The notes beneath the pieces were generated by a model, which saw only the letters and a program-made list of their open reading frames with translations, was not told the DNA's origin and made no database searches. DNA of 64,000 nucleotides from Clostridiales bacterium DTU083 (GTDB lineage: Bacteria; Bacillota; Clostridia; Caldicoprobacterales; DTU083), in the NCBI GenBank assembly GCA_001512915.1, contig LFTC01000066.1, positions 37,528-101,527 of the forward strand. The letters run 5' to 3'. A program made the position numbers and the translations under genes. The first letter of the stretch is position 1; every line of letters starts with the position of its first letter. Shown piece after piece: positions 8,539 through 63,103 of the stretch.

Positions 8539-9495
8539 GTGCTAAAATTTATATTTATGGGTACCCCCGAGTTCGCACTTCCTGCCCTGGAATCTGTTAA
8601 GAGCAGCGGACACAAACTTTTGGCAGTAGTAACACAGCCAGACAGGCCAAAAGGCCGCGGGCATCAGCTTGCCCCGCCTCCTGTTAAAGTTTGGGCAGAT
8701 AACAATCAGGTTCCGGTATTACAACCAGATAAAATAAAAGGAAACAAAGAATTTATTAAACATGTAAGCAACCTGGATCCTGATTTGATAATTACTTGTG
8801 CTTATGGACAGATATTGCCCAGCGAACTTCTGAACATCCCCTCTTTAGGATGCATTAATATACACGCTTCACTGCTTCCTGAATATAGGGGAGCTTCGCC
8901 AATCCAGCAGGCTTTGATTGATGGAAAGGAAAAGACAGGTATTACTATTTTTTATATGGATGAAGGAATGGATACAGGCGATATAATAATACAGAAAGAA
9001 TTAGAAATACATCCTGATGAAAATGCGGGAGAGTTGCATGATCGTTTGTCTGAACTTGGCGGGAAGCTGCTTACTGATGTAATAAAAATGTTTGAAAAAG
9101 GAAAGCCAGAAGGCATACCACAGGATGACGATAAGGCAACCTATTGCGGCAAAATCGATAAATCCATGGGTGAGATTTCATGGGATCAACCGGCATATGT
9201 TATTCGTAATTTGATCAGAGGTTTGACACCTTGGCCGGGTGCATATACCTTTATAAACCAGGGTAAACGCTTAAAAATATGGAAAGCAATTGTGGAGACA
9301 GAGGATTCATCTAATCAAAGGCATACACCGGGAACTGTCATTAAGGCAGATCAAAGCTATGGATTACAGGTAGCTTGCGGCCAAGGTATTATTCGGATAG
9401 TTGAGTTGCAGGAACAAGGCGGAAGGCGTATGTCGGATGTTGATTATTTAAGGGGCAATCTCATAAAAACAGGTACAAAATTTGGCAGAGCATAA
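8539..9495 (+). CDS. fmt: methionyl-tRNA formyltransferase
   Basis: FMGTPEFALPAL, INIHASLLPEYRGASPIQQALIDG. Confidence 0.97.
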   Translation: MLKFIFMGTPEFALPALESVKSSGHKLLAVVTQPDRPKGRGHQLAPPPVKVWADNNQVPVLQPDKIKGNKEFIKHVSNLDPDLIITCAYGQILPSELLNIPSLGCINIHASLLPEYRGASPIQQALIDGKEKTGITIFYMDEGMDTGDIIIQKELEIHPDENAGELHDRLSELGGKLLTDVIKMFEKGKPEGIPQDDDKATYCGKIDKSMGEISWDQPAYVIRNLIRGLTPWPGAYTFINQGKRLKIWKAIVETEDSSNQRHTPGTVIKADQSYGLQVACGQGIIRIVELQEQGGRRMSDVDYLRGNLIKTGTKFGRA

Positions 9496-51544: not shown

Positions 51545-52633
51545 ATGAAAAGAATTATTGCTGTGTTTTTAGCTATGATGATGCTGACTGCAATGATTAC
51601 CGGATGTTCTCAACCAGTGGAAACAGAGCCTTCTCCTGAGCCAGAACCAACCCAGACTACAGAAGGTTCTGAACCTGAAGAGTCTGAAACATCTGGTGAT
51701 GAAGAAGGTTCTGATGAGCCCATACTAATAGGAGTCAGCATCATGGAAATGACTGCTTATACTTGGTTTTTGGGTGCTGTAGATGGTTGCAAACAGTGGG
51801 CAGAAGAACATCCAGAAGCGAATTTTACATTTCAGTTTGAAGATTCTGCTTCTGATGTTCAAACAATGTTGAATAACATTGAAAATCTTGTTACAGCAGG
51901 AGCAAAAGGAATTATACTATTCCCAGCTGATGCATCCTCTGCAATCCCAACTATGAAGCAGTATGTTGCACAGGGTATTCCTTTTATCATTGGAGATTAT
52001 AAGCAAGAACCTGCTTCTCCGGATGATGTTGTGTGGTCAACTTTTGTAGGTCATGATATGAGGGCCCTAGGTGAAACTGCTGGTAAAGTTGCGGTAGAGT
52101 ATTTGAAAACCTTAGGCAAAGATGATCCTGTTTGCTTATTCATTTCTCGCCCAACTTCCGGCCAAGTATCAGTAGACAGATTCGAAGGATTCCGCGACAC
52201 AGTTTTAGCTGAATTCCCGAATGCTAAAATAATTGAAGAAGGCGATACTGGTGCTGGAAGCAGAGCTTCTGCGCAGGATCTGGTGGAGAATATTCTCCAA
52301 AGAGAACCGCATATTGATGTAGTTTGCGGACATAATGATGCTGCAGTAGTTGGTGCGTATAATGCTGCTGTTTCCCAAAATAGGAATGAAATGAAATTCA
52401 TCGGAATTGCGGGTGACAAGGACGTACTAACATTTATTACTGAAGGTAACGAGGCTTGGTTAGGAGAAGTTTTGCAAGATCCAGTAGTACTTGGATATCA
52501 GGCATGTGAAGCTATGTATAAAGTATTAGTATTAGGTGAAGAGCTTCCTGAAGAATATGAATTGCCTATGCCTGAAGCAATTACGCCAGATAACGTAAAA
52601 GACTATGACTGGCAGAATTGGTCATGGCTGTAA
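51545..52633 (+). CDS. sugar ABC transporter substrate-binding lipoprotein (Peripla_BP_4, CUT2 type)
   Basis: Lipobox LTAMITGC; type I periplasmic-binding fold motifs (GAKGIILFPADASSAIPTMK; DVVCGHNDAAVVGAYNA; IGIAGDKDVLTFI). Confidence 0.93.
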   Translation: MKRIIAVFLAMMMLTAMITGCSQPVETEPSPEPEPTQTTEGSEPEESETSGDEEGSDEPILIGVSIMEMTAYTWFLGAVDGCKQWAEEHPEANFTFQFEDSASDVQTMLNNIENLVTAGAKGIILFPADASSAIPTMKQYVAQGIPFIIGDYKQEPASPDDVVWSTFVGHDMRALGETAGKVAVEYLKTLGKDDPVCLFISRPTSGQVSVDRFEGFRDTVLAEFPNAKIIEEGDTGAGSRASAQDLVENILQREPHIDVVCGHNDAAVVGAYNAAVSQNRNEMKFIGIAGDKDVLTFITEGNEAWLGEVLQDPVVLGYQACEAMYKVLVLGEELPEEYELPMPEAITPDNVKDYDWQNWSWL

Positions 52634-52644
52634 GTATTGTAGAA

Positions 52645-52681
52645 CAATTGGGAGTGGGCCCATACAAGCCCCTCCCTATTG
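52645..52681 (+). repeat. intercistronic hairpin between SBP-A and the glycosidase-like gene
   Basis: CAATTGGGAGTGGGC-CCATACAA-GCCCCTCCCTATTG imperfect inverted repeat, no T-run. Confidence 0.65.
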
Positions 52682-52705
52682 AATACAAATTCAGGAGGTA
52701 TGATT

Positions 52706-54802
52706 ATGATCAATTTGTTACCTGAACCTAAAAGGATTAGAGATGATAACGGGTATACAAAATCTTTTAAAAATTTCCTTTTGCTAACAGAAAGTAATGT
52801 GGATTATTTACAAGAAATAGCAACCTTACGTCTTTGGAATCATGATGATATAAAAGTATTTACAAAAACTACTAGTAATGCCAGCAATTACATAACTATT
52901 AATATTATACCTACACTGGATGGTATTAGCACAGAGAATGATGAGCTTTTCAAGTCACAAGGATATTATATCGAAATTAAGGAAGATCAAGTCACATTAA
53001 AGTATGAGAATAATGCTGGTTATATTTATGGAATAACGAGTATAATCAGATTATTGAGAAAAGAAGATGAAATGTATAAATTGCCTCTGTGTGAAATAAT
53101 AGATTACCCGTCAGTTCCAGTAAGAGCTGTTGCTCCGACTTTTTCCTGGTATGCAGGCTATGGAAGAATAGGATTTGATTCACAATTGTGGGGATATGAT
53201 GAATGGGTCGAGTTTATAAATATTTGCGTTGATAATAAAATTAATCAGATGAACATGGTAATGTATGGCTATTGGCCATTTGAAATGGAAGAATATCCAG
53301 AAACCGTTTTCCGCAATGTTCCAGTGAAAATATGGAATCACGAAAATAGGAGATGGCTAACTATACGATTCAGCCATCCTAATATTGAGGAGAACTTTCT
53401 ACAAGATCTAATTGAATATGCACATAAATTAGAAGTAAAAATATTTGCTTACGTAGGACTTAATTCATATAATGGCGGTTACAGTATTAAGCATCCTGAA
53501 GCAAGATCAAAACCCCCCAAATCAGAAAAGTTTTTAAACGACTTTGATTCACTTTGCTTAAGCTATCCAGGAACCGTAGAATATATTGTAGAGTGCATGA
53601 AGAAAATTGCTACCTTAGGTTTCGATGGATATGCACTTGAGGAAAGCGAGGAAGGTTTCTGGTATTGTGAATGTGATGGATGTAAGAAGCGTTGGCATGC
53701 TATTTCGAACACTCCAGGAGAGGCTAAGCATAAAGCTAATATGTGGTTGCTTAATCAAATTTATGAAGAAGTAAAAAAGATTAATCCTGATATTGTGTTA
53801 GGAATTCGTGCTTTCCGTCAACCTCCTTTGGAAAAAGATCCTGAATTTTTGAGAGAATGTGCAGAAGCCATGCCTGATGATGTTGTATTATTCTGGGCGC
53901 CAGGATTATATGTCCCAGAAAGTGAATTTGAAAAATGGGTCAATATCTTTGGCAAGCATAGAATTTGGGCTAGAGACACAGAAGCAAATTCAATAACATC
54001 AACTATGGGCAGGTTATATCGTACTTTTAAGTCTAATGTAATAAGATATGAAGATGAGACTAATGAACAAGTTATAGAAACAGATATACGGCAGCATAAA
54101 GGCAGTGTGAGAATGGGAGTACACGGGATCAATGGATACGTATTTGAATGGTATGGGCTTCCTTTACATTTGTTTGCACACGGCAATTACGGTTGGGGTT
54201 CTATGATGGATGAGGAAGCATTCTATAGCAAGGCTTGTAGAATTAATTTTGGTGAAATGGGAGATAAAGTACTATATCTGCTGCGAAATATTATAACTAT
54301 TCATGAGAGTCAAATACCGTTGTATACCACTCCATTCCCATTCCAAAAGAATAAAATAACAAAAGATGATATTCCAACAATCATGACAGCCAAAGAAAAT
54401 CTGCCCCATTTATTAAAAATATGCGAGGAATTAAGGGAGTGGGCATCCAGCAATAAAGAATATAGAATTTGGTTGCCTCACTTTGACAAACTACACAATG
54501 CCATAAGACGTAATGCAGTAATTTATGATCTAGTATTAGCTGCATTGCGATATGAAGAGGAAACAGATCCTGTTAAGAAAGACGCTATTTTAGATGAAAT
54601 ACTAGAACTAAATGAGAAAGATTTTGATATCGTAAAAGAAATGTTCTTTGATATTAATCCTGTAGGTGAAACAGGTGTAAAGAGCTGCATGTATCCATAC
54701 CATGAATTAAAGAGACTAATTCATAATATAAGGAATCCAGAAAATCCTGATGATGATATTATCTGTTCTGGAATTGAAGCATTAGGCTGGCTATGGCTTT
54801 AA
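52706..54802 (+). CDS. glycoside hydrolase-like protein with GH20b/GH67-type N-domain and DUF4838-like barrel
   Basis: N-terminal NLLPEPKRIRDDNG...GYYIEIKEDQVTLKYENNAGYIYGITSIIRLL resembles the GH20b N-domain; DYPSVPVRAVAPTFSW; LEESEEGFWYCECDGCKKRW Cys cluster. Confidence 0.7.
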   Translation: MINLLPEPKRIRDDNGYTKSFKNFLLLTESNVDYLQEIATLRLWNHDDIKVFTKTTSNASNYITINIIPTLDGISTENDELFKSQGYYIEIKEDQVTLKYENNAGYIYGITSIIRLLRKEDEMYKLPLCEIIDYPSVPVRAVAPTFSWYAGYGRIGFDSQLWGYDEWVEFINICVDNKINQMNMVMYGYWPFEMEEYPETVFRNVPVKIWNHENRRWLTIRFSHPNIEENFLQDLIEYAHKLEVKIFAYVGLNSYNGGYSIKHPEARSKPPKSEKFLNDFDSLCLSYPGTVEYIVECMKKIATLGFDGYALEESEEGFWYCECDGCKKRWHAISNTPGEAKHKANMWLLNQIYEEVKKINPDIVLGIRAFRQPPLEKDPEFLRECAEAMPDDVVLFWAPGLYVPESEFEKWVNIFGKHRIWARDTEANSITSTMGRLYRTFKSNVIRYEDETNEQVIETDIRQHKGSVRMGVHGINGYVFEWYGLPLHLFAHGNYGWGSMMDEEAFYSKACRINFGEMGDKVLYLLRNIITIHESQIPLYTTPFPFQKNKITKDDIPTIMTAKENLPHLLKICEELREWASSNKEYRIWLPHFDKLHNAIRRNAVIYDLVLAALRYEEETDPVKKDAILDEILELNEKDFDIVKEMFFDINPVGETGVKSCMYPYHELKRLIHNIRNPENPDDDIICSGIEALGWLWL

Positions 54803-54826
54803 TTGAATGGAGATGGAGAAGTGAAA

Positions 54827-56368
54827 ATGAATACATCAGCAGAAGTAATAAAACAGACATCGAATGCAATACCTCTAATTGAAGTTAAAAACTGTACAAT
54901 GGAGTTCCCGGGCGTCAAAGCGCTAGATAATGTTAACTTCACTTTGATGCCCGGCGAATGCCATGCCCTAGTAGGTGAAAATGGGGCAGGCAAATCTACT
55001 TTATCAAAGTGTATAACTGGCGAATATCGCATGACTCAAGGCGAGTTATACATTGAAGGGAAAAGAATAAGAAATTCTAATTATACAATAAGAGAATCTC
55101 AGAGCCTTGGCATTTCAATAGTTCATCAAGAATTTCAGCTTATGAATGAAATGACCGGTTTAGAAAACGTCTTTTTAGGTCGTTATGAAACGAAAAGTGG
55201 TTTTATAGACTGGAAAGCTTTACAGAAAAAAATTGAGGAATTAAAAGATTTTTTAGAAGTAGACGTTAATTTTAATATACCGGTTAAGTATTTGAGAACA
55301 GCTGAAAAGCAAATAGTACAGTTGGCAAGGGCATTAGTTAATGATTCGAAAGTCATAATATTCGATGAGTTAACTGCTGTACTACAGGAAAAGGATATTC
55401 AAAACATATTCCGGATAATAAATGTTCTTAAGAAAAGAGGAATAGGAATAATTTATATATCTCACAGATTAGATGAGGTTTTTGAGTGTTGTGACAGTTA
55501 CACGGTTCTATGCGACGGTAAACATATTAACAGTGGGAAAGTAGCAGATATTGATAAGCCTCAGCTTATTAGAATGATAATTGGCCGTGAGTTAACGCAA
55601 GCTTATCCTCAAATAAACAATAAGATTGGTGATACATTATTAGAAATTAGAGATTTCACAGCACCAAAGGCCTTTAGGGATGTTAATCTTTGCTTAAGAG
55701 AAGGTGAAGTTATAGGAATTGCAGGATTGGTTGGAGCAGGTAAGACTGAGTTGGTACAAGCCATCTTTGGCAATCATGAATTAATTAAAGGGAAAATCCT
55801 CTTAAGAGGTAAAGAAGTTAAGATTAAAAATCCTAGACATGCTATTAAACTAGGAATTGGATTTGTTCCAGATGAAAGAAGAATGCTCGGTCTTAACATG
55901 CTATTTGACATCAAGGATAATACTACCTTGCCCACTATGGCTATGTTTAGAAAATATAAAATCTTTCAGGATAAAAAAGCGGAAGCCAAGGCTGCATACG
56001 ATATTAACAAGAAGCTTAATCTAAACTATTATTCCTTATGGCAGAAGGTTTCAAAACTATCTGGAGGAAATCAACAAAAAATCGTTATTGCAAAATGGAT
56101 GTTGCGAAACTGCGATATATTTCTTATGGATGAACCTACCCGTGGAATAGATATAGGGGCTAAATTCGAGATATATTCATTGATTAACGAATTAACAAAA
56201 CAAGGAAAAGGCATTATTATGGTATCACCAGAAATGGAAGAACTTATTGGACTTTGCCATCGTATTTACGTAATGTATGAAGGAGTTGTTATGGATGTGG
56301 TTGAAGGTGAACGGAAAACACAAGAAGTTATTATTAACAGTTTGTTAGGAGTGAAAGAAAATGTTTGA
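54827..56368 (+). CDS. sugar ABC transporter ATP-binding protein (RbsA/MglA-like, two NBDs), transporter A
   Basis: [20 protein letters not shown]-terminal [36 protein letters not shown]. Confidence 0.95.
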
Positions 56369-57335
56369 ATTAGACTACAAAGAAAAAACCAAAAGATATA
56401 GCGGTGGCATTAAATCATTCCTATCAGACTGGATGATACTTATATTGTTTATAGCATTAGTGACTATATGTATGCTTACAATGAGTAAGTTTAGAGACCC
56501 AAAAAACTTGTTTAATATAATACGACAAGCATCTTTTATTGCTATTATTTCCATGGGTGAGTTCTTTGTTATCCTTACGGGTAACATGGATATGTCAATA
56601 TCTTCCATCATAGGTATGGTGTCAATTTTCTTTGCAGGATTAGTTGTTACTATGGGTCTTCCAGTTTGGCTAGCAGTTTTAATAGTTATTCTGATGTCTA
56701 TTATAGTTGGCATAATTAACGGAGTTCTAACAGTAATTGGGAAAATGCCTTCTTTCATTGCTACTTTAGTAGTTATGAACATTATACGCGGTTTTAACTT
56801 CATATACTCTGGAGGACTCCCGATCTCTGGTCTTCCTGAAGGTTTCAATTTCCTTGGTGCAGGATATGTGGGTGTTGTTCCTTTTCCAATGATCCTTATG
56901 TTTATAATAGCGATCATACTATATGTATTTACCACCCAAACGTCTTTAGGTAGAAGTTTTTATGCAGTGGGAGGTAATTATGAAGCAAGTAAACTTTCTG
57001 GTATAAATGTACAATTTGTTGGGATACTTGCTTTTGTGATTTGCGCTGTCTTAACATCAATTGGCGCATTAGGACTAACATCGAAAACCTTAGCTGGTAA
57101 CATAGCCTTAGGTGATGAATTGTTATTTGATGTAATGACAATCGTAGTGCTAGGTGGCACATCTTTAATGGGTGGTAGAGGTAGAATATTTGGAGTTGTA
57201 ATAGGAGCACTATTCTTACAAGTAATTAGTAATGTAATGGTATTAATGAGTATTGCTACACCTTGGCAGTGGGTGGTAAAAGGCATTATTCTGGTCACTG
57301 TGGTTTTGATTGATTCAAATACAAAACGTGATTAA
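56361..57335 (+). CDS. sugar ABC transporter permease (RbsC-like), transporter A
   Basis: Multi-[52 protein letters not shown]. Confidence 0.94.
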
Positions 57336-57417: not shown

Positions 57418-58590
57418 ATGCACGGACGTATCCTAATACCAGATCATGAATACAAGGAAAGAGTGATGCGGGCAGCTGAGTTGATCAGAAGAGATGGATT
57501 AGACGCACTAATTGTAAACGGTAATGAAGCTGATTTCGCAAATACCAGGTATTTTTCTGGATTCTGGCCTTTATTTGAAAGATGCGGTGTTGCTATCAGT
57601 GCGGCTGGAGATGCAGCACTTATGGTTGGACCGGAAAGTGGCGAATTTGCCAAAGATCGGTCAAAAATTGATAAAATTTATGTATTAAAAGATTACCGTG
57701 AAAGTGCCGACCCCGCATATCCTGAGCTGAAGTGTGATACTTTTAATGATGTATTTAAAGGAATCGGTGTTACCGGCAAGAAGTTAAGAATAGGTGTTGC
57801 TAGCTTCTTGGATACTTCAGTTGTAATTATGGAAGGAATAAAACAAGCATTTCCTGAAGCAGAAATTGTTAGATCAGATCATATAATGGTAGAACTTCGC
57901 TCCATAAAATCTGAAAATGAGATAGCCTGCTTAAAGGAAGGTTATAGAATTGCGGAACTTGCAACCAAACAGGTAATTGAAGAAATAAGACCTGGAATGA
58001 CAGAGTTACAAATGGTTGGGGTGGCACAGAGAGTAATATACGAAAACGGTGCTGAATACGAAGGTCTACCCATGTATGTATTCTCTGAGAAATCAACCAG
58101 ACATGCAATTTCTCGTTCTTCTTACCGTAAATTTGAAAAGGGTGATATAGTACAACTTAATCTGTCCGCTAGAATTGACGGATACTCTGCTTCTATTGGT
58201 TTCCCAATTGTATTAGGGAAATTAACCGGTAAAAGACGGGATGTAGTAATGTTTGGACTTGAGGCTCATAAATGGACCGAAAAGCAACTTAGAGCTGGAG
58301 TACCAGCAGCTGATGTTGCTAAAGGATATTACCAGTTTTTTGTTGACAATGGCTATAAGGATAACTTTGTATATGGACCGATGCATGGCACAGGCATGAT
58401 AGAAGTTGAAGCGCCCTGGGTTGAAACTACTTCAGATTATACTTTTAAACCAAATATGACATTCCAGATTGACTCTTTTATTGCTACTGAAGAATTCGGT
58501 GTAAGATGGGAAAAAGGAATAGCAATAAAAGAAAATGGAGTAGAAGTACTGTCTTCACCGATAGGAAGGCTGTATGAGCTAGATTTCTAA
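57418..58590 (+). CDS. M24 'pita-bread' family protein, creatinase-like (metal ligands largely substituted)
   Basis: Creatinase N-domain (RAAELIRRDGLDALIVNGNEADFANTRYFSGF) and M24 domain (MVELRSIKSENEIACLKEGYRIAELATKQVIEEIRPGMTE; YGPMHGTGMIEVEAPW). Confidence 0.88.
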   Translation: MHGRILIPDHEYKERVMRAAELIRRDGLDALIVNGNEADFANTRYFSGFWPLFERCGVAISAAGDAALMVGPESGEFAKDRSKIDKIYVLKDYRESADPAYPELKCDTFNDVFKGIGVTGKKLRIGVASFLDTSVVIMEGIKQAFPEAEIVRSDHIMVELRSIKSENEIACLKEGYRIAELATKQVIEEIRPGMTELQMVGVAQRVIYENGAEYEGLPMYVFSEKSTRHAISRSSYRKFEKGDIVQLNLSARIDGYSASIGFPIVLGKLTGKRRDVVMFGLEAHKWTEKQLRAGVPAADVAKGYYQFFVDNGYKDNFVYGPMHGTGMIEVEAPWVETTSDYTFKPNMTFQIDSFIATEEFGVRWEKGIAIKENGVEVLSSPIGRLYELDF

Positions 58591-58621
58591 ATTAATAATT
58601 ACACACATTGTCGTGAATTTT

Positions 58622-58676
58622 TATAAAACTGCCATTAAAAGGAGTGATTTCTACTCCTTTTAATGGGCAGTTTATA
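58622..58676 (+). repeat. long intercistronic hairpin between the M24 and creatininase-family genes
   Basis: TATAAAACTGCCATTAAAAGGAGT-GATTTCT-ACTCCTTTTAATGGGCAGTTTATA, about 20-bp stem with a bulge. Confidence 0.75.
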
Positions 58677-58707
58677 ACAATAAATATAAGATGAAAGAAG
58701 GATAGTT

Positions 58708-59442
58708 ATGAAATTAGAACTATTATTCCCCAAAGAAATAGAAGAAGCAAAGCGAAAAAAAATTCCACTAGTAATACCAGTTGGGACCATAGAATACCAT
58801 GGACCTCATTGTGCATTTGGATGTGATGGTCTAATTGCATATGGAATTCTGGAAAGATTAAAAGAGGAAAAAGATATAATAATTGCACCACCTATTTGGT
58901 ATAGCCCCTCCAGCTGGGCCGTTGGGGGTCCGGAAACTGGAACAGTACATGTTGATGCTGATGTATTTGAGCAATATGTTTATTATGTGTTGAAGTCTTT
59001 TCTTTATGGAGGATGGCAAAATATTTATTTACTCATACATCACCAATATGAGCAGGAAAACTTGCTTCCCATGACCTTATGTTGTATGAAGGCGGCAAAA
59101 AAACTAACTTTCCAATATCTAGAAGAAAAACGTGGAATAGGTTGGTGGGGAAGCAATGAGAATAAGGAGTTTTATGAAAAACTGGACGATAGTGATAATC
59201 CTTGGGATTGGATTACTGTATTGCCTGTTATGAGCAAAGAAGTTCAAAACGCTACTGGATATGATCATGCTGGTAAATGGGAATGTTCTATTTTAAGTGC
59301 TCTTTACCCTGAATCAGTAGAATTAGACAGGATTAAAGGTAGTAATGAATGGTTTATTCAGGATGCAGTTGCATCTTCACCTGAAATCGGAGAAAAAATG
59401 GTAAGTTTATGCTTGGAAGATTTGAAAAAGAAGATACGATAA
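58708..59442 (+). CDS. creatininase family protein
   Basis: PVGTIEYHGPHCAFGCDGLIA (E/H/D metal motif) and YDHAGKWECSILSALYPESV (HAGxxE-S motif). Confidence 0.85.
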   Translation: MKLELLFPKEIEEAKRKKIPLVIPVGTIEYHGPHCAFGCDGLIAYGILERLKEEKDIIIAPPIWYSPSSWAVGGPETGTVHVDADVFEQYVYYVLKSFLYGGWQNIYLLIHHQYEQENLLPMTLCCMKAAKKLTFQYLEEKRGIGWWGSNENKEFYEKLDDSDNPWDWITVLPVMSKEVQNATGYDHAGKWECSILSALYPESVELDRIKGSNEWFIQDAVASSPEIGEKMVSLCLEDLKKKIR

Positions 59443-59480
59443 ACGTTTTATAGTTGTTAAATATATATGAGGTGGTGCAT

Positions 59481-61001
59481 ATGGACAGCAAGGTATTGGA
59501 GATGAGAAATATTTCTAAAAGCTTTCCAGGAGTTAAAGCATTGGATGATGTTTCTTTTGACTTAAAAGCTGGGGAAGTACATGCTTTAGTTGGAGAAAAC
59601 GGAGCAGGCAAATCAACTCTGATGAAAGTATTGGCTGGAATTTATTCTAAAGATTCAGGAGCCATATTAATAAATGGAAACGAAGTCAAGATTGAATCCG
59701 TAAGAGATGCGCAAAGATTGGGTATTGTTATGATCCATCAGGAGCTAAATCTGATGAATCACCTGACGGTAGCTGAGAATATCTTTATTGGCCGTGAGTA
59801 CAAAAAAAAGTTCCCTTTATTTCTTGATGCGGGCAAACAAATAAAAAAGACTCGTGAAATATTTTCTGAGTTAAATATAGACATTGATCCAACAGTTAAA
59901 GTAGGAAAACTAACTGTTGCAAAACAACAAATGGTTGAAATTGCAAAAGCTCTTTCTTATGATTCAAAAATATTAATAATGGATGAACCAACTGCATCTC
60001 TTACAGATAGCGAAATTGAAGATTTGTTCAGGATAGTAAGAACACTGAAAGAAGAGGGCAGATCCATTATCTACATTTCTCATAGGTTAGAGGAGTTAAA
60101 AATTATTTCTGACAGAATTACTGTAATGAGAGATGGAAGATATATAGATACAGTCAAGACAGAGGAAGCTGACATTGATGATGTCATTAAGATGATGGTA
60201 GGAAGAGAAATATTTGTTAAAAAACAAGAACCTTTTAAAAACGAAGACGCTCCTGTTGCACTCAAAGTAGAGAACTTAAGTGCGGGCAGAATGGTAAAAA
60301 ATGTTTCTTTCCACGTAAGAAAAGGCGAGATTCTGGGGTTCGCCGGCCTGATGGGTGCAGGAAGGACTGAGGTTGCCAGGGCAATATTTGCTGCAGAGAA
60401 TTATGAATCAGGAGATATATATATAAATGGAAGAAAAGTGAAGATTAAGACTCCCAATGATGCGGTAAAAGCAGGGATAGCGTATCTGTCTGAAGATAGA
60501 AGGCGGTATGGGTTAGCTTTAGGTATGAATGTTGATGAAAACATTTCAATGGCTAACATGAAAAAATTCTCCAAACTTTTATTTATAGATTTTAAAAAAT
60601 CTTTTACAAATTCTCAGATGCAAAGAGAGAAATTAGATATTAGAACTCCGTCATTAAAACAGAGAACAAAATTTCTGTCCGGCGGTAATCAGCAAAAAGT
60701 TGTACTGGCAAAATGGCTGACCAGAGACTCTGAGATAATTATATTTGATGAACCTACCCGGGGCATCGATGTCGGAGCTAAAAATGAGATATATAAGCTG
60801 TTAAATAATCTAGCGCAACAAGGTAAGGCAATAATTGTAATTTCTTCAGAATTGCCTGAAATTATAAGAACATGCCATCGTGTACTGGTCATGTGTGAAG
60901 GCAGAATTACTGGCGAATTAATCGGGGATGAAATCGATCAAAATACAATCATGCAATATGCCATCAAAAGGGATATCAATAACGGGAGGCTCTCATCATG
61001 A
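59481..61001 (+). CDS. sugar ABC transporter ATP-binding protein (two NBDs), transporter B
   Basis: [83 protein letters not shown]. Confidence 0.95.
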   Translation: MDSKVLEMRNISKSFPGVKALDDVSFDLKAGEVHALVGENGAGKSTLMKVLAGIYSKDSGAILINGNEVKIESVRDAQRLGIVMIHQELNLMNHLTVAENIFIGREYKKKFPLFLDAGKQIKKTREIFSELNIDIDPTVKVGKLTVAKQQMVEIAKALSYDSKILIMDEPTASLTDSEIEDLFRIVRTLKEEGRSIIYISHRLEELKIISDRITVMRDGRYIDTVKTEEADIDDVIKMMVGREIFVKKQEPFKNEDAPVALKVENLSAGRMVKNVSFHVRKGEILGFAGLMGAGRTEVARAIFAAENYESGDIYINGRKVKIKTPNDAVKAGIAYLSEDRRRYGLALGMNVDENISMANMKKFSKLLFIDFKKSFTNSQMQREKLDIRTPSLKQRTKFLSGGNQQKVVLAKWLTRDSEIIIFDEPTRGIDVGAKNEIYKLLNNLAQQGKAIIVISSELPEIIRTCHRVLVMCEGRITGELIGDEIDQNTIMQYAIKRDINNGRLSS

Positions 61002-61999
61002 CAAGAACAAGTGACAAACCTTCAAAAAAAATAAACGATAATAAAATGACAAGTTCAATAAGAGATAGATCGCAAATTGTTATTATTTTGGGCATATACA
61101 TCTTGATGATTTTATTCTTTTTTATACTAAAACCCAACTACCTGAGCTATGATAACATTATGACCATTTTATTAGCTACTTGTGTAAATGGTCTTTTGGC
61201 TCTTGGAGTTTCATTTGTAATTTTTACCGGAGGAATTGATATTTCTGTAGGTACAGTTATGACCTTTTCCAGTGTAATGAGCGGAATAGCCCTAAATAAC
61301 TGGGGATTACCATTGCCACTTGTAATTTTATTTGGTTTTCTTGTAGGTGCCTTCTGTGGCGCTGTTAACGGATTTGGCGTTGCCAAAATGTATCTTCCGC
61401 CATTTATAGCAACTATGGCAATGCAAATGATTACCAAAGGTCTTTCTTTAGTGGTTTCAGGGATTAAGCCTATATATTTTACTGCTGCACCGGGCTATCA
61501 AAATATAGCTACAGGATACTTTTTAGGTATTCCGGGATTTTATAATGCAATTGTGATTTTACTTGTAATTGCTGTTATAGCCTATATTATTTTTTCTAAA
61601 ACAATTATCGGAAGATTTGCCCTTGCTATAGGCTCCAACGAGGAAGCAACACGTTTATCCGGTGTAAAAACTGACAATTGGAAAATTGCCATATATTCAT
61701 TATGCGGTTTATTCGCAGGTTTTGCCGGGCTGATAATGTCTTCCAGGTTAAATTCAGCTCAGCCTCAGCTAGGTGCCGGTTATGAATTGGAAGCTATAGC
61801 TGCAGCTGTAATTGGTGGCAATTCATTAAATGGAGGAGAAGGCAGCATTACCGGTACGATCCTAGGAGCCCTTATTATCAGTTCATTAACAAATGGGTTA
61901 AGAATTATGTCTGTACCTACCGAACTTCAATCAGCAATAGTAGGACTAGTTCTTGCCTTGGCTGTATATTTTGATAAGAGAAGAAGAATAAATGAATAA
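60998..61999 (+). CDS. sugar ABC transporter permease, transporter B
   Basis: VIFTGGIDISVGTVMTFSSVMSG; AIGSNEEATRLSGV; AAVIGGNSLNGGEGSITGTILGA. Confidence 0.94.
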   Translation: MTRTSDKPSKKINDNKMTSSIRDRSQIVIILGIYILMILFFFILKPNYLSYDNIMTILLATCVNGLLALGVSFVIFTGGIDISVGTVMTFSSVMSGIALNNWGLPLPLVILFGFLVGAFCGAVNGFGVAKMYLPPFIATMAMQMITKGLSLVVSGIKPIYFTAAPGYQNIATGYFLGIPGFYNAIVILLVIAVIAYIIFSKTIIGRFALAIGSNEEATRLSGVKTDNWKIAIYSLCGLFAGFAGLIMSSRLNSAQPQLGAGYELEAIAAAVIGGNSLNGGEGSITGTILGALIISSLTNGLRIMSVPTELQSAIVGLVLALAVYFDKRRRINE

Positions 62000-62062: not shown

Positions 62063-63103
62063 ATGATGAAAAAAAGAATTCTAGCACTTCTCTTGATTGT
62101 ATCGATTTTGGCATTTGTTGTCGGATGCCAGCAAGCAAGCCAAGATCAACCATCTCAAGAAACACCTCAAAAACCTGCTGAAGAGCCAGCACAGGAACCA
62201 GCTGAAGAACCAGCGCAAGAACCTTCAAGTGATGAAAAGCCATATGTAGCTATGATTGCTTTAGGATATGGACATCAGTTCTGGCAAGCAGTTAGACAAG
62301 GTGCAGAAAACGCAGCAGAGGAGTTCGGCGTAAGGATCACATTCGAAGGCCCTGAAGAAGAGACAATGGTCGACAAACAACTTGATATGCTGAACACCGC
62401 TTTATCTAATAATCCAGCAGCAATAGCATTAGCTGCAATTGATGTAGAAGCTGTTACGCCAATACTGAAAGATGCCAAATCAAAAGGAATAAGAGTAGTT
62501 GGTTTCGACTCAGGCTGCGGTGATGAAGCAGAATCACATTGCTCTACTGATAACTTGCAAGCAGCCGCGCTGGCAGCAGAAAACGCAGCTAGACTGTTGG
62601 AAGGCAAAGGGAAAATAGGAATTGTAGGACATTCCCAGACTGTAATTGATGCAGTGCAAAGAGTAGATGGATTTGTAGAAAAGATAAAAAATGAATATCC
62701 TGACATAGAAATTGTCGATATTCAGTATGGTGACGGAGATCATCTGAAATCTGCCGAAGTTACCAAAGGTATGTTACAAGCACATCCGGATATAGACCTG
62801 ATCTATACATCTAATGAAGGAGCCTGTGTAGGAGCTTATAACGGACTTAAAGAAGCTGGCAAATTGAATGAAGTAATACTAGTTGGATTTGACTCCTCAG
62901 CTGCAATGAAGGAAGCTATCAGAAATGGAGAAATTGCCGGAGCGATCACTCAGGACCCTGTTGGCATGGGATATAAGACTGTTGAAGCTGCAGTAAAACT
63001 AATCAAAGGTGAAAAAGTGGAAGAATTCATAGACACAGGTTGCTATTGGTATGATGCCAGCAACATGGATGAAGATCATATTGCACCACTTCTATACGAT
63101 TAA
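62063..63103 (+). CDS. sugar ABC transporter substrate-binding lipoprotein, transporter B
   Basis: Lipobox LAFVVGC; Peripla_BP_4 motifs (GYGHQFWQAVRQGAENAAEEFGVRITFEGP; DLIYTSNEGACVGAYNGLKEAG). Confidence 0.93.
   Translation: MMKKRILALLLIVSILAFVVGCQQASQDQPSQETPQKPAEEPAQEPAEEPAQEPSSDEKPYVAMIALGYGHQFWQAVRQGAENAAEEFGVRITFEGPEEETMVDKQLDMLNTALSNNPAAIALAAIDVEAVTPILKDAKSKGIRVVGFDSGCGDEAESHCSTDNLQAAALAAENAARLLEGKGKIGIVGHSQTVIDAVQRVDGFVEKIKNEYPDIEIVDIQYGDGDHLKSAEVTKGMLQAHPDIDLIYTSNEGACVGAYNGLKEAGKLNEVILVGFDSSAAMKEAIRNGEIAGAITQDPVGMGYKTVEAAVKLIKGEKVEEFIDTGCYWYDASNMDEDHIAPLLYD
62176..62223 (+). repeat. two imperfect 24-bp tandem units encoding AEEPAQEP linker repeats
   Basis: GCTGAAGAGCCAGCACAGGAACCA / GCTGAAGAACCAGCGCAAGAACCT. 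Confidence 0.8.

Follow-up and report, generated by a model that had tools for sequence, protein, structure and literature searches.

What does a protein with the M24 peptidase fold do once its metal site has degenerated? This question is raised by the gene at 57418–58590 of the window, the 64,000-nucleotide stretch of the Clostridiales bacterium DTU083 genome analyzed here. The original prediction described its product as an M24 protein that appears to have lost the dinuclear metal site, with creatinase-like substitutions, and proposed that it is a non-peptidase C–N hydrolase. Only a small number of M24 enzymes are not peptidases, and still fewer, such as creatinase and ectoine hydrolase, are known to function in the absence of the metal pair.

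Metal-ligand columns of the M24 protein

The translated open reading frame scores 95.6 bits against the Pfam model Peptidase_M24 (cut-off 23) and 38.8 bits against Creatinase_N. Its AlphaFold2 model (pLDDT 95.3) was recognized by Foldseek as a pita-bread fold (E 1.8e-32), with TMq values of up to 0.82 for prolidases, 0.81–0.84 for creatinase (1chm/7yto), and about 0.80 for the ectoine hydrolase DoeA/EutD (6twk). Based on the Pfam scores and the fold, the protein belongs to the M24 superfamily. The predicted coordinates, reading frame, and quoted motifs were correct. The positions of the features discussed below are collected in Table 1.

Table 1. Features of the M24 gene and its surroundings in the window.
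Feature	Position	Strand	Evidence and remarks
Ribose-type ABC substrate-binding protein	51545..52633	+	PF13407; PDB matches are sugar-binding proteins
GH20b/DUF4838-like glycosidase-like protein	52679..54802	+	~700 aa; no evident signal peptide (N-terminus by eye)
Sugar ABC importer ATPase	54803..56368	+	Profile match
Sugar ABC importer permease	56361..57335	+	Profile match
M24/Creatinase_N protein with degenerate metal site	57418..58590	+	390 aa; ORF, Pfam, alignment, AlphaFold2
H229, candidate catalytic His of the original prediction	58102..58104	+	Invariant, 82/82; two residues before the creatinase H232 position
I231, column of creatinase catalytic H232 and of the prolidase His	58108..58110	+	Alignment
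N248, first metal-ligand Asp column	58159..58161	+	Asn, 82/82, and likewise in creatinase; Q/T/G in paralogues
S259, second (bridging) metal-ligand Asp column	58192..58194	+	Family A 47/S 34, never Asp
H323, retained metal-ligand His	58384..58386	+	82/82
D352, ligand Glu column	58471..58473	+	Asp, 82/82
E365, retained final bridging Glu (His376 in creatinase)	58510..58512	+	82/82
Strong hairpin between M24 and creatininase genes	58617..58681	+	–28.5 kcal/mol, z –8.6
Creatininase-family hydrolase (PF02633)	58708..59442	+	Metal motif retained: E29, H31, D40, H112, E115, H187, E192
Second sugar ABC ATPase	59454..61001	+	Profile match
Second sugar ABC permease	60998..61999	+	Profile match
Second substrate-binding protein (RhaS/LsrB-like)	62063..63103	+	Profile and PDB matches

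The ligand columns were defined by an alignment to the prolidases of Pyrococcus and Thermotoga; in the former, PH0974, the ligands are Asp215, Asp226, His290, Glu319, and Glu333 (PMC2814137). The five columns are occupied by N248, S259, H323, D352, and E365, so that the signature D, D, H, E, E of active dinuclear M24 peptidases reads N, S, H, D, E. This alignment bears out the predicted change of the first Asp to Asn and of a ligand Glu to Asp, as well as the retention of the His in the HG.G region and of the final Glu. The loss of the second Asp is likewise real, but it had been placed one residue off: A258 is ruled out as its position, since the alignment gives S259.

We next consider conservation, based on 82 distinct homologues that are at least about 52% identical. 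N248, H323, D352, E365, and H229 are invariant in all 82, and position 259 is occupied by Ala in 47 and by Ser in 34 but never by Asp. Because four of the ligand columns are identical throughout the family, the pattern is not a matter of chance. H323, D352, and E365 are also retained in nine aligned paralogues. With both Asp columns substituted in the M24 protein and in all homologues, the dinuclear metal centre is, as judged from these alignments, lost in the whole family, and the joint occurrence of this loss with an invariant pocket argues for a non-peptidase function. A metal-free state is not thereby established: the His, Asp, and Glu of one half-site persist, so that a single metal may still be bound.

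In a quick tree, the family and its paralogues, all of which lack both Asp residues, formed a single clade (36 rows, SH-aLRT 98). The best tree keeps this metal-less clade separate from the creatinases, but joining the two was not rejected by the AU test (p 0.33), so that the metal may have been lost once or independently in both. The distance to the nearest homologue (L018) is low at nonsynonymous sites (dN 0.057) and saturated at synonymous ones. A close-relative genome (G008, loci L013 and L101) contains several metal-less M24 paralogues, two of them in tandem on one contig, with Gln, Thr, or Gly in the first-Asp column.

Genomic context in the window and in related loci

Two ribose-type ABC importers and a GH20b/DUF4838-like gene surround the M24 gene and the creatininase-family gene. 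The GH20b/DUF4838-like gene accompanies the importer in 10 of the 80 related loci described below, and the only PDB matches of its product are weak ones with the N-terminal domain of O-GlcNAcase/GH20 proteins. The seven residues of the creatininase metal motif are invariant in 19 aligned members. The AF2 model of this protein (pLDDT 85) had 26 significant fold matches, all of them creatininase-family structures (TM about 0.55–0.70), which together with the motif places it in this family. Its score against the creatinine-specific equivalog TIGR04448 is 68 bits, below the cut-off of 235. By a reading of ORF translations, positions 1–49834 of the window contain mostly housekeeping genes (priA-, def-, fmt-, rsmB-, rlmN-, fab-, smc-, ffh-, and trmD-like).

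The hairpin between the two genes has 29-nt arms (58617–58645 and 58653–58681) without a clear U-run after it, and it may be a terminator, an attenuator, or a processing site. No gene for an ASRT protein adjoins the M24 gene in the window; the genome carries one on another contig. The intervening hairpin and this missing neighbour both weaken the case for simple co-transcription and count against the cassette function proposed below.

Scanning contigs from many genomes yielded 80 related loci (64–91% identity), which belong to Clostridia, Spirochaetes, Paenibacillaceae, and some further groups. The gene is uncommon: in a sample of 399 genomes from the phylum, a single one, that of the window itself, matched at 1e-100, and an order-level search gave five genomes with the M24 gene, again including this one. 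The most frequent partners in the 80 loci are genes for ASRT (60) and creatininase-family proteins (57), followed by rhaM-like (23), acetyltransferase (18), DUF4432 (13), CE4 (10), and glycoside hydrolase (GH, 10) genes. ASRT and M24 genes are separated by a median gap of 34 bp, and the creatininase gene is mostly located 8–130 bp downstream of the M24 gene on the same strand. The usual orders are ASRT-M24-creatininase, M24-ASRT-creatininase, and M24-ASRT-CE4.

A CE4 deacetylase-like gene is present in 9 of the 23 loci without creatininase. Taken together, one locus has both genes, 56 have creatininase alone, 9 have CE4 alone, and 14 have neither, so the two are nearly exclusive (Fisher p 2.9e-5, kinship ignored, with the test run on the data that had suggested the pattern). 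In kinship-independent pairs, the exclusion still points in one direction (0 same, about 3.3 opposite) but falls short of significance (p 0.25). The loci of paralogues from the same clade carry ribose-type ABC importers, NagA (above cut-off), M20 deacylase, and sugar kinases. The clues to the substrate are mixed, since the M24 operons also repeatedly contain genes resembling AllA (ureidoglycolate lyase; L021 and others, 8 loci by clustering) and URO-D (6 loci).

Two observations concern individual loci. At 9023–11173 of L019, a permease and the M24 protein lie within one open frame of 716 aa, either a fusion or an assembly frameshift. In GC-rich loci such as L026 (9491–12295), antisense ORFs of up to >1500 aa are found opposite real genes.

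Solo ASRT (ASRAH) genes accompanied by a monosaccharide ABC importer have been described before, and a sugar-binding role was proposed for ASRT domains (De Souza et al. 2009, PMC2739507). The operons in that study resemble ours in these two components. They differ in that the association with M24, creatininase, or CE4 proteins is not described there, the main text being free of the words M24, peptidase, or creatin-. Among open-licence papers, we found no description of M24 together with creatininase or with ASRT. The combination of ASRT, M24, and creatininase or CE4 within sugar-type operons looks like a conserved catabolic cassette that has not been described.

Comparison with known M24 proteins and alternative explanations

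Prolidases and aminopeptidase P (2zsg, 1wy2) are the top sequence and fold matches overall, and on this ground the M24 protein could be an ordinary Xaa-Pro peptidase with unusual ligands. We consider this hardly credible: in addition to both Asp ligands, it lacks two substrate-site His residues, with I231 in the prolidase His column and V330 in that of the HE-motif His. Creatinase offers a closer parallel at the metal site. In the 1chm sequence, which is identical to the PDB chain across residues 2–402, the two Asp columns are occupied by N249 and A260; hence, the predicted parallel in the Asp substitutions stands. The His at the third ligand is shared as well, and F62 and R64 of creatinase are matched by F53 and R55. 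The catalytic set, which we take to be H232, E262, E358, and H376, is replaced by I231, G261, D352, and E365, and R335 by Val. The two proteins thus have the fold and the Asp loss in common and differ in their catalytic residues. The His of the STRHAISRSS motif, likened in the original prediction to the catalytic His of creatinase, is H229; although invariant, it lies two residues upstream of the H232 column and is ruled out as its equivalent. A true creatine pathway, in which the creatininase would make creatine from creatinine and the M24 protein would be the creatinase, could draw on these shared residues and on the creatininase-family gene directly 3′ of the M24 gene. It is very improbable, and we discard a literal creatine operon because of the lost catalytic residues, the low TIGR04448 score of the partner, and the sugar importers of the window, which stand where a genuine creatine operon (L139: creatinase, creatininase, sarcosine oxidase, glyA) has the sarcosine oxidase genes. 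Sarcosine pathway genes are absent from the M24 loci examined. DoeA is comparable as a C–N hydrolase on an M24 fold without the standard ligands. However, the residues of the aligned S. meliloti DoeA differ from those of the M24 protein at all five ligand columns, and DoeA is encoded in a compatible-solute operon (L136 as contrast). The M24 protein scores 52.3 bits on the ectoine hydrolase model TIGR02993 (cut-off 613), and neighbours such as doeB or an ectoine transporter are absent from the window and are not among the recurrent partners of the related loci.

Two further explanations accept the loss of the dinuclear site. A serious rival to catalysis by residues alone is a mononuclear metalloenzyme, a hydrolase or lyase with a single metal in the His half-site; we regard it as possible, though on the doubtful side. 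H323, D352, and E365, conserved as described above, are three of the four ligands of this site, and in PH0974 the second metal is held by Asp226, His290, Glu319, and Glu333 (PMC2814137). Against it, the bridging Asp has become Ala or Ser, and at the fourth ligand there is now the shorter Asp. Moreover, creatinase has His324 and Glu358 in the matching places and is not known to use a metal. Alternatively, the protein could have no catalytic function and serve to sense a ligand or as a partner subunit, regulating the creatininase-family enzyme or binding to the ASRT protein. The lost ligands and the tight ASRT linkage would agree with such a pseudoenzyme, and M24 pseudoenzymes without a peptidase role exist, as exemplified by LmaPA2G4 (PMC3888471). 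We nevertheless judge it unlikely, since its polar pocket does not vary even between phyla, beyond what a scaffold needs.

A proposed role in carbohydrate-nitrogen catabolism

All relatives have a broken two-metal site, and within sugar-uptake clusters the gene keeps company with those for a putative sugar-binding protein (ASRT) and an amide-cutting enzyme; the M24 protein is therefore probably a small-molecule enzyme rather than a peptidase. On balance, we somewhat favour the view that the M24 protein is a non-peptidase enzyme on a pita-bread fold with a destroyed dinuclear site, which acts within a cassette for a nitrogen-containing, sugar-like compound. Of the original proposal, the non-peptidase part fits the operon context and the amidohydrolase neighbour; creatinase-like catalysis is not supported.

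In the proposed pathway, such a compound would be imported, usually via the adjoining monosaccharide-type importer, with the ASRT-family protein as the putative sugar binder of the cassette. The metal-dependent creatininase or CE4 enzyme would cut an amide (N-acyl or cyclic), and the M24 protein would perform a neighbouring step by residue-based acid–base catalysis in a pocket of N248, H323, E331, D352, E365, and probably H229. That the substrate is a small molecule, its sugar-like nature, and the order of the steps are inferred. Its identity as an amino-sugar derivative is a guess, and so is the breaking of a C–N bond in the M24 step, although we consider this the most likely reaction.

Conserved in gut Clostridia, in Spirochaetes, and in Paenibacillaceae, and linked there to an ASRT protein and a swappable amide hydrolase, the M24 clade presents a testable module for a putative route of carbohydrate-nitrogen catabolism. 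Tentatively, it may represent an undescribed enzyme class, in which an M24 fold without the dinuclear site would break C–N (or other) bonds in nitrogen-containing sugar-like compounds. It would then be the central part of a catabolic ASRT-M24-amidohydrolase module in gut Clostridia and in Spirochaetes, the amidohydrolase of which would have been swapped between the unrelated folds of creatininase and CE4. For genomes that carry members of the metal-less clade, the annotation of these genes as Xaa-Pro peptidases is probably wrong.
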